This document shows positions 8,292 to 40,926 of a DNA stretch of 44,758 bases, piece by piece (position 1 is the first letter of the stretch; each line of letters opens with the position of its first letter). The stretch is from NCBI GenBank assembly GCA_003056165.1, contig LSNR01000001.1, positions 1 to 44,758 of the forward strand, read 5' to 3'. Below the pieces are notes generated by a model. It saw nothing but the letters and a program-made list of their open reading frames with translations. It had not been told where the DNA came from and did no database searches. A program made the position numbers and the translations under genes. Source of the DNA: Parcubacteria group bacterium M6-OD1-3 (lineage in GTDB: Bacteria > Patescibacteriota > Minisyncoccia > Moranbacterales > UBA9337).

Positions 8292-8345
8292 ATCCAATAA
8301 ACAATCATTTTCCCACGGCCGTGGGAAAATGATTGTTTATTGGAT
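8292..8345. repeat. Perfect 54-bp palindrome containing Cas2-locus palindrome copy P1
   Basis: Every base from 8292 to 8318 is complementary to 8345 back to 8319, with no loop and no mismatch. The centre is the CCCACGGCCGTGGG core (8312-8325). The 28-bp unit shared with the other three copies is 8305-8332, with outer TCAT/ATGA. Both flanks read as the ATGATTGTTT flank seen on one side only of copies P2 and P4. Confidence 0.9.
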
Positions 8346-8654
8346 TAAAAATGAAAGACAAAAGTTTTAAGTTTAGAGATGAGAACTTAAAGATTAAAAT
8401 TTGGAGTTTAAAGATGAAAGATTTGGGTTTAAAGATACAAGCTTGAACACCAATTAATTAAACTAACGGTTTTTTTTTAATTTAAATAATTAAACTTTGC
8501 TCAGCTTAAATTAAACAACGGAACATAGTTTAAATTTAAGCCTGAGTCTAAACCTAAATTTAAATCTAAGCCTGAGTCTAAGTCTGAGCCTAATTTAAAC
8601 TCAAATTTAAATTCAAATCTAAACTTAATCTCAAACTCAGAATTAAATTCAAAC
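8346..8654. repeat. Degenerate short-period repeat tract
   Basis: Between two palindromes the sequence shows two low-complexity tracts. At 8360-8445, units like TTTAAAGATGA/GATTTGG recur. At about 8530-8655 there is a period-6 degenerate repeat (units such as AAGCCT, GAGTCT, AAATCT, AACTCA, AATTCA). The period-6 tract is open in one frame as alternating Lys/Glu/Asn with Ser/Pro/Leu, but it has no start codon and follows a TAG, so it is not called a gene. Confidence 0.6.
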
Positions 8655-8700
8655 TATAATATCAAAAAATCAACCTACTCATAATCCCACGGCCGTGGGA
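8655..8700 (+). repeat. 46-bp direct repeat, left copy
   Basis: It is identical to 9603-9648. It comprises a 24-nt AT-rich lead-in plus most of palindrome P2. With a mismatch of two bases the similarity continues to 8712/9660. The two copies flank the PaaX/Cas2-like gene. Confidence 0.9.
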
Positions 8701-8706
8701 TTATGA
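8679..8706. repeat. 28-bp palindrome copy P2, overlapping the Cas2-like gene stop codon
   Basis: This is a perfect 28-bp palindrome with core CCCACGGCCGTGGG (8686-8699) and outer TCAT/ATGA. The stop codon of the minus-strand gene (8701-8703) lies inside its right arm, so the last residues of the protein are written by the element and its flank. Confidence 0.9.
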
Positions 8707-9279
8707 TTGTTTTAAAGTTTTATTTTTTTTGAAAAAATACCTTTTCAATTTATTTTCATTGTCAATTTTAATAGCAGTTATAACTCTTACATATTTTTCC
8801 GACTGATAAAGTCTCACTAATTTCAAGATTGACCTTTCGAAAGCATACGGCGAGACAAAAACACTATGTTGTAATTTTTTGAAATCTAATTCTCGCAAAT
8901 GATTTCTTAAAACATCTCTAAAGCCCCTATCTTTTTCGGGAATATCAAAAATAACAATTCTCCATTTTTTATCCCAATATTTAGATTTTTTGAACTTTAT
9001 AGAAGACCCCAGTAAACTTAACTTCCTAGCCTGTTCCCTTCCCTCTTTGGTTAAAACTAACTTGAAAGATCCATTGGCTAATCTTTTTTCCTCCAATAAC
9101 TTTTCTTGAGTTAAACGAGAAATAGAGCGATTAAAGTTTTGTTGATTAATTTCCCGCCATTCTCTTTTGATAGCTCTCAATGTACGAAAATATTGTTGCG
9201 GTGAATGAGAAAGACCCAACGCTGTCCCTCCTAAAAGTACTACTAAAATCTTTTTTTGAACTGAACCAATTTTATACAT
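8701..9279 (-). CDS. PaaX-like winged-helix protein with Cas2-like C-terminal domain
   Basis: This 192-residue protein has two parts. Residues ~1-95 form a winged helix-turn-helix (KILVVLLGGTAL, NFNRSISRLTQEKLLEEKRLANG, LVLTKEGREQA). Residues ~100-185 form a ferredoxin-like Cas2 fold: KWRIVIFDIPEKDRGFRDVLRNHL, then LDFKKLQHSVFVSP and YVRVITAI. The Asp in FDIPE occupies the position of the metal-binding Asp of Cas2 nucleases; PaaX repressors share this fold. No cas1 or CRISPR array is in the window, so an adaptation role is unsupported. It is bracketed by 28-bp palindromes and a 46-bp direct repeat, and its stop codon lies in a palindrome. Alternatives are a repressor that binds the palindromes, or a nuclease mobilising them. 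Fold assignment is firm, function open. Confidence 0.85.
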   Translation of the reverse strand: MYKIGSVQKKILVVLLGGTALGLSHSPQQYFRTLRAIKREWREINQQNFNRSISRLTQEKLLEEKRLANGSFKLVLTKEGREQARKLSLLGSSIKFKKSKYWDKKWRIVIFDIPEKDRGFRDVLRNHLRELDFKKLQHSVFVSPYAFERSILKLVRLYQSEKYVRVITAIKIDNENKLKRYFFKKNKTLKQS

Positions 9280-9556
9280 AAATCATATCCAATTATTTTA
9301 ATTACACTTATTTTTAATATTTTTTAGAGTTTCGCTTTAGTAATGTATTTTAATATTTTATCTTAATCTATCACTCTAAATATCCTAATTTTAATATTCT
9401 ATTTTAATAGTTTATTTTAACAATATATTACTCTGTGTACCGTTATATATTATATATACCGTCATAAATATTGTTATAAATATTGCTAAGAATATTGCAT
9501 TCTTAACAAATTATCTTAATTCTATTTCGCTATAATTACTCTGTACTTTTATTTTA
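9280..9556. other. AT-rich region upstream of the Cas2-like gene
   Basis: These 277 bp of nearly pure A/T sequence have recurring TTTTAATATT-like units and a TATATATTATATATA-like stretch around 9440-9460. It must hold the promoter of the minus-strand gene starting at 9279, but no convincing -35/-10 pair stands out. No ORF is supported. Confidence 0.4.
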
Positions 9557-9584
9557 TCATAATCCCACGGCCGTGGCAAAATGA
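9557..9584. repeat. 28-bp palindrome copy P3 (imperfect)
   Basis: It has the same core as the other copies but ends GTGGC instead of GTGGG. The outer TCAT (9557-9560) and ATGA (9581-9584) pair, and the inner two bases on each side do not. It lies 70 bp from copy P4. Confidence 0.85.
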
Positions 9585-9602
9585 GTATAAATACTTGTAG
9601 AA

Positions 9603-9648
9603 TATAATATCAAAAAATCAACCTACTCATAATCCCACGGCCGTGGGA
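9603..9648 (+). repeat. 46-bp direct repeat, right copy
   Basis: It is identical to 8655-8700 and in the same orientation. Together the copies define a unit of about 1 kb (8655-9660) holding the Cas2-like gene, its upstream region and copies P2 to P4. Confidence 0.9.
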
Positions 9649-9654
9649 AAATGA
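9627..9654. repeat. 28-bp palindrome copy P4
   Basis: The core CCCACGGCCGTGGG is at 9634-9647, extended by T/A to 16 bp. Two mismatched positions on each side (AA/AA) are followed by paired outer TCAT/ATGA. The right flank TTGTTTT matches copies P1 and P2. Confidence 0.9.
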
Positions 9655-9699
9655 TTGTTTTGCTTTGACAGTTTTGATTATTTTAGCTTAATCAGTTTT

Positions 9700-40892: not shown

Positions 40893-40926
40893 TGTGTATC
40901 TTTAAAGATATCTTTAAAGATACACA
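40893..40926 (-). terminator. 34-bp perfect palindrome, possible terminator of the CHAP gene
   Basis: Every base from 40893 to 40909 pairs with 40926 to 40910 (TGTGTATCTTTAAAGAT and its complement). On the minus strand it is followed by a T-rich stretch (TTTTTATATTTT), so it may end the CHAP transcript 212 bp past the stop. A loop-free palindrome can also be a protein-binding site. Confidence 0.5.

Follow-up and report, generated by a model that had tools for sequence, protein, structure and literature searches.

The locus and its repeats

The window, by which we mean the whole stretch of 44,758 nucleotides that was analysed, comes from a Moranbacteria-type genome (818 kb in 26 contigs, 94% complete). 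One of its genes is accompanied by palindromes on both sides and by two copies of a direct repeat:

8292..8345, no strand: perfect palindrome of 54 bp, the distal one of the two downstream, centred 382 nt beyond the stop codon
8655..8700, plus strand: 46-bp direct repeat, copy 1, composed of 24 bp of flanking DNA and of the left arm and core of a palindrome
8679..8706, no strand: perfect palindrome of 28 bp that includes the stop codon and is centred 8 nt beyond it
8701..9279, minus strand: gene for a 192-aa protein with an N-terminal winged helix and a PaaX_M/Cas2-like domain
9557..9584, no strand: imperfect upstream palindrome, core CCCACGGCCGTGGC, centre about 291 nt before the start codon
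9603..9648, plus strand: 46-bp direct repeat, copy 2, an exact match to copy 1
9627..9654, no strand: imperfect upstream palindrome with two mismatched arm pairs, centre about 362 nt before the start codon

An earlier account of this DNA, made from its letters alone (the sequence-only reading), placed these features correctly throughout, including the exact 46-bp repeat (8655-8700 is identical to 9603-9648) and the position of the stop codon (TAA on the minus strand, 8701-8703) inside the palindrome at 8679-8706. Its count of four copies of a 28-bp palindrome needs qualification, in that two copies are perfect and two (9557-9584 and 9627-9654) are degraded. The distal downstream palindrome (8292-8345) has the 28-bp unit at its centre (8305-8332), and its arms run 13 bp past this shared unit. 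The centre of the proximal palindrome, 8 nt past the stop, falls at the commonest downstream position across the gene family. The perfect copies form hairpins when folded as single-stranded DNA; a search of Rfam gave no match. Recombination between the two copies of the 46-bp repeat would delete the gene, leaving one palindrome. The DNA between the two downstream palindromes (8350-8650) consists of low-complexity degenerate repeats, GA-rich at first and then TAAGCCTGAGTC-like. Far from any Cas2-like gene, the window also holds a perfect 34-bp palindrome (TGTGTATCTTTAAAGATATCTTTAAAGATACACA, 40893-40926), which lacks the C-NNNN-G centre described below.

With up to 3 mismatches allowed, the palindrome core is found four times in the window, always at this locus, a number reached in none of 100 shuffles. 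With at most one mismatch it occurs at six places in the whole 818-kb genome, four of them at this gene; one of the two remaining sites, C12:44064, immediately precedes a tsaE-like gene, and the other, C26:2025, sits in a diverged duplicate of the C12:44064 segment. A diverged duplication of about 330 bp in this genome (L007 5850-6160 and L008 1790-2130) carries the same palindrome together with the first tsaE-like codons. In the L007 copy there is a match between the outer left arm and the right flank, which gives the impression that one arm was rewritten using the other.

The encoded protein and its family

The protein matches the PaaX_M family (PF20803, E 7e-22) and is the only member encoded in the window's genome; its PaaX_M/Cas2-like domain spans residues 100-173 approximately. 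It is neither a scoring Cas2 (PF09827, E 8e-4 and 20.0 bits against a cut-off of 23.8; TIGR01573, 22.5 bits against 24.5) nor a scoring PaaX equivalog (36.8 bits against 264.6). An AlphaFold2 model built with 54 sequences (mean pLDDT 78.5, pTM 0.58) has a well predicted Cas2-like part and an N-terminal winged-helix-like part of lower confidence. The best solved structure in a fold search was E. coli PaaX (8a39), followed by Rv0674, a Sulfolobus RNase, VapD and many Cas2 proteins. Invariant in the 54 sequences are Asp112, in the first Cas2-type strand, Arg121, Ser139 and a WD..WR stretch. No Pfam match to the PaaX C-terminal domain and no H-hydrophobic-H (HUH) motif was found in the window protein, nor any match to Y1_Tnp in Pfam scans of 11 family members.

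The family is patchily distributed, with at least one homologue in 56 of 123 related genomes and up to 11 per genome. A single-sequence peptide scan of genome contigs returned nothing, and an alignment-based scan found homologues. A profile scan of a species-level genome collection gave at least 579 matching loci, and the best 80 of these are nearly all labelled Patescibacteria (Moranbacteria, Yonath-, Lloyd-, Giovannoni-, Azam-, Nomura-, Taylor-, Zambryski- and Vogelbacteria, and other Patescibacteria). No homologue was found in 2.9 million viral contigs (IMG/VR), in PLSDB plasmids or in INPHARED phages. In agreement with the sequence-only reading, which had noted that there is no cas1, no Cas1 match was found in the window's genome (94% complete), and Cas1 is present in only 2 of 20 related genomes searched. 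All sequence data are MAGs, in which repeats may be collapsed or misassembled, and the sequences compared here and below are non-independent.

Association of palindromes with the gene family

Palindromes are strongly associated with these genes. At a score of at least 12, a threshold set like the others within this analysis, a palindrome lies within 250 bp of 55 of the 82 homologues from Paceibacteria-type genomes; the corresponding figures are 9 of 258 for control windows at these loci and 2 of 800 for shuffled sequences. A second, largely independent set drawn from other lineages gave 31 of 49 homologues against 6 of 345 controls. The co-occurrence of palindrome and Cas2-like family across genomes, suggested as a check in the sequence-only reading, is thus observed twice. 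Such palindromes are found upstream in 36 of 80 cases and downstream in 42 of 80; 50 elements have a palindrome on both sides of the gene. Upstream, the centres are concentrated at distances of 26-130 nt from the start codon, and downstream at 8-93 nt from the stop codon, which the downstream palindromes often overlap. The clustering at such genes that the same reading had envisaged is also seen: the core is carried by 10 of 10 strong palindromes near a gene and by 6 of 38 elsewhere, in 831 kb of sampled stretches that were partly picked to include such genes.

What is conserved in this association is the architecture and not the sequence. The exact 14-bp core is nearly absent from 186 relatives, and the window's 28-bp sequence is private to its genome; present in the relatives are the C-NNNN-G core and the self-complementary arms. 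Taken alone, the near-absence of the 14-bp core would look like a refutation; the palindromes beside homologues, read directly, show that it is not one.

Architecture and cognate pairing

The centre of the palindromes is a 4-nt core (GATC, GGCC, GGTC, TATC, ATAT, TATA, AATT and others) closed by a C-G pair in 126 of 129 cases. Arm positions are paired in 74-99% of cases, against 26-48% with shuffled partners, and the arms vary between elements yet remain self-complementary. Lengths are mostly 28-58 bp, with self-complementarity extending to 40-58 bp. In the 50 elements with both palindromes, arm identity is 87% between the left and right palindromes of one element and 37% across elements. The core type follows the protein tree, on which it changes 29 times; shuffling gives 44 changes on average and never fewer than 39. 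The design of the palindrome is therefore conserved while its sequence is not, each gene having its own version. At one site with conserved flanks in two genomes (L083 and L093, in G106 and G116), the palindromes of the Cas2-like genes differ in both arms and core.

Several features bear on the form in which the palindromes act. Asymmetric cores, read in gene orientation, are more often GGTC (24) than GACC (7; p 0.003, uncorrected for relatedness), and among arm mismatches there are 55 of the G-T and 37 of the A-C kind. Together with the long self-complementarity, the strand bias of the core favours a folded single strand, or a process in which one arm serves as the template of its partner. 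Within an element, the two copies can have different outer arms and each still be self-complementary; the test that gave this result is in part circular, since pairing itself defines where a palindrome ends. Conversely, conservation at positions 1-4 from the centre and again at 12-13, about one helical turn further out, is compatible, along with the PaaX-like fold and non-significant covariation, with a dimer on duplex DNA. Within one dispersed family, arm pairing (85.4%) is no better than in column shuffles (87.2%), so there is no visible sign that solo copies are maintained as hairpins, and an attempt to prove a hairpin by covariation within the family gave a negative answer.

Dispersed solo palindromes

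Palindromes of the same kinds also occur away from the genes. In one genome (G027), three palindrome families match three paralogues (family A, C26:23340; B, C37:48027; C, C40:1757), and a fourth, GCATATGC-centred, is cognate to the paralogue at C26:10849. The last family has 14 copies in this genome and 10, 8, 6, 4 and 1 in five congeners, with 0 matches to a reversed-pattern control. The 22 solo copies checked are all intergenic, none of them lying inside an ORF of at least 100 aa. Dispersed solo copies cognate to one paralogue do exist, and the comparison with RAYT/REP systems drawn in the sequence-only reading is supported.

Two further observations concern dispersed palindromes. A segment of G027 (L208 1880-3440, contig C10) holds two tandem composites of family B and family A palindromes about 120-130 bp apart, which resemble the BIME mosaic arrays of classical REPs. 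A dispersed GCTACGTARCATGYTACGTAGC-like family, with centre AACATGTT or AGCATGTT and no cognate gene identified, is present in L187, L188, L198, L204 and L205 (G055, G022, G043) and in L331 (G027).

Evidence on movement

Blocks of homology bounded by palindromes were found in two pairs of congeneric genomes. In two congeners (G049, G074), elements are closely similar from the first to the last palindrome and lie in unrelated flanks; a search for the joined flanks of this element recovered neither of them from the other genome, G074 being 87% complete. In the other pair (G061, G032), a block of about 1.25 kb is 92% identical, with its left boundary exactly at a palindrome and its right end about 11 nt past the last one. 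Neighbour genes are mostly unrelated from locus to locus. Congeners also differ in what they carry at an orthologous intergenic site flanked by a dedA-like gene and typA: G094 has two palindromes there, G090 has one that differs from these, G027 has another type, and G065, G061 and G032 lack palindromes of the type. With regard to the earlier question of insertion sites that differ between strains, orthologous sites do vary in palindrome content but are not clean single insertions. A clean empty site for the window's own element, a point also raised in that reading, was not found in relatives; in the comparison anchored on ClpC it could not be read, as the upstream neighbour is not conserved.

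A locus at a CCA-transferase gene exists within one genus in two versions, one that bears the gene, with a gap of 1.7-2.1 kb, and a short one of 28-128 bp. It was rejected as a clean excision site since the insert carries other ORFs, which points to a hotspot. In L088 and L091, the left palindrome abuts an apparently truncated ABC-transporter ATPase frame, which may mean that a gene was truncated here or received an insertion.

Interpretation and alternative explanations

In REP/RAYT (TnpA-REP) systems, or REPtrons, a gene is bordered by palindromes, cognate palindromes are dispersed, and the two co-diverge (PMC2817692, PMC8266576). On balance, we favour the reading that Patescibacteria have a REPtron-like system of which this locus is a single unit, with the Cas2-like protein as the cognate and perhaps mobilising factor. 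The gene for the winged-helix/Cas2-like protein would lie between palindromes cognate to that protein, and such palindromes would also occur elsewhere in the genome as solo intergenic repeats. A dimer would recognise the cognate palindrome through its C-NNNN-G centre and arms, either as an extruded hairpin or as a duplex, and the Cas2-like domain, with its invariant Asp112, would nick or bridge it. Palindrome-bounded DNA might then be copied or moved into intergenic DNA, the gene remaining single-copy per palindrome type and the solo palindromes multiplying. The sequences themselves show the association, the architecture, the cognate pairing, the dispersal and the palindrome-bounded blocks of homology; binding, cleavage and transposition are putative activities of the protein. 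Counting against the REPtron-like reading are that no precise empty site or target-site duplication was found at the loci compared, that copy numbers are low beside classical REPs, that arm pairing within one dispersed family does not exceed column shuffles, that the data are MAGs, that about a third of the homologues have no palindrome at the threshold used, and that the window's upstream palindromes are farther from the gene than is the norm in the family. It is tempting to speculate further that a Cas2-type protein recognises and disperses its own hairpin-forming palindromes without Cas1 or HUH, and so represents a new class of mobile repeat; this is an appreciable possibility, held with less assurance than the REPtron-like reading itself.

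The main rival, which we consider rather unlikely, is a PaaX-type regulator whose dimer binds duplex operators at its own gene (autoregulation) and at a small scattered regulon. A winged helix joined to PaaX_M, with E. coli PaaX as the best solved match, is what such a regulator would look like, and upstream palindromes are often found at 26-130 nt from the start codon. Since the two half-sites of a homodimer have to be identical, arms would co-diverge with the protein in this case too, and the two conserved blocks one helical turn apart, like the non-significant covariation within families, fit a dimer on duplex DNA. Operators would not, however, be expected to be equally common downstream of the stop codon (42 against 36 upstream at a score of at least 12) and often to overlap it, nor to be self-complementary over 40-58 bp, far past a normal half-site. 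Differing outer arms that are each self-complementary (in part a result of how palindrome ends are defined) also speak against this regulator, and palindrome-bounded homology blocks are not expected of operators.

Considerably less probable is an mRNA hairpin, bound or cut for autoregulation by a Cas2/VapD-like RNase, with the solo copies as other mRNA targets. Solved homologues among the relatives of Cas2 and VapD include endoribonucleases, and the excess of GGTC over GACC and of G-T over A-C mismatches looks as if one strand mattered. The same strand bias fits strand-specific processing of single-stranded DNA, however, and palindromes at both ends, their dispersal and the palindrome-bounded blocks would be left unexplained.

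It is very improbable that these are common bidirectional terminators, or AT-rich inverted repeats that arose by chance beside a compact gene: the palindromes are intergenic and some downstream copies are flanked by runs of A and T (e.g. L066), but T5 at the 3' edge is confined to 4 of the 36 upstream and 2 of the 42 downstream palindromes, on which count the terminator reading was rejected, and neither the excess over control windows and shuffles nor the C-G closing pair nor the cognate pairing with paralogues is accounted for. Least credible of all is a decayed CRISPR adaptation module with an orphan Cas2, for which the weak Cas2 profile matches speak, and against which stand scores below both Cas2 cut-offs, a far better match to PF20803, a winged helix foreign to Cas2, the lack of a Cas1 match in this genome and the rarity of Cas1 in related ones.

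If the REPtron-like reading is correct, a gene-plus-palindrome system is widespread in ultra-small bacteria, with at least 579 loci, among genes that profile annotation easily reads as "Cas2" or "PaaX". It would give orphan Cas2-like proteins a testable function and bear on the DNA-holding role of Cas2 in CRISPR adaptation. Should the proposal of a new class hold as well, the Cas2 fold alone can be the core of a transposition-like activity, and has been recruited for palindrome handling outside CRISPR. The several orthogonal protein/palindrome pairs per genome make specificity and activity directly testable.

Comparison with known systems

In the open-access literature searched, we found no account of a Cas2-like or PaaX-like gene accompanied by cognate palindromes. 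Novelty rests on the gene-palindrome association and on a protein unrelated to RAYT, and would be less if the operator reading were right. With the PaaX repressor the window protein shares a winged helix and a Cas2-like PaaX_M domain (closest solved structure 8a39); it differs in length (192 aa against a 279-position model), in score, in having palindromes on both sides of the gene, and in its architecture, in which only PaaX_M and a winged-helix-like N-terminus represent the full three domains. With CRISPR Cas2 and VapD it has in common the ferredoxin-type Cas2-like fold and the conserved first-strand Asp, and it differs by the added winged helix, by a genome lacking a Cas1 match, by the absence of an identified array and by its gene-linked palindromes. 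IS200/IS605 elements are likewise small one-gene units with palindromic structures near both ends, but here there is no HUH/Y1 transposase, no multi-copy full-length element was seen and there is no target-site evidence.

The closest parallels are with REP/RAYT. One short gene is bordered by palindromes, solo palindromes of the same type are intergenic, the gene is mostly single-copy per palindrome type, palindromes co-diverge with the protein, and several palindrome classes are associated within one genome. Unlike RAYT, the protein is winged-helix/Cas2-like, with no Y1 domain and, in the window protein, no HUH motif; the palindromes are longer (mostly 28-58 bp) and have a C-NNNN-G centre; copies per family number about 1-14 instead of tens to hundreds; and the hosts are Patescibacteria. 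A GTAG/GTGG head at the palindrome foot occurs in 2 of 78 palindromes (random expectation 7.6%), and the system is not filed as REP/RAYT since both this foot and a HUH/Y1 domain are lacking. It may nevertheless work like REP/RAYT, and would then be a convergent counterpart built on an unrelated protein.
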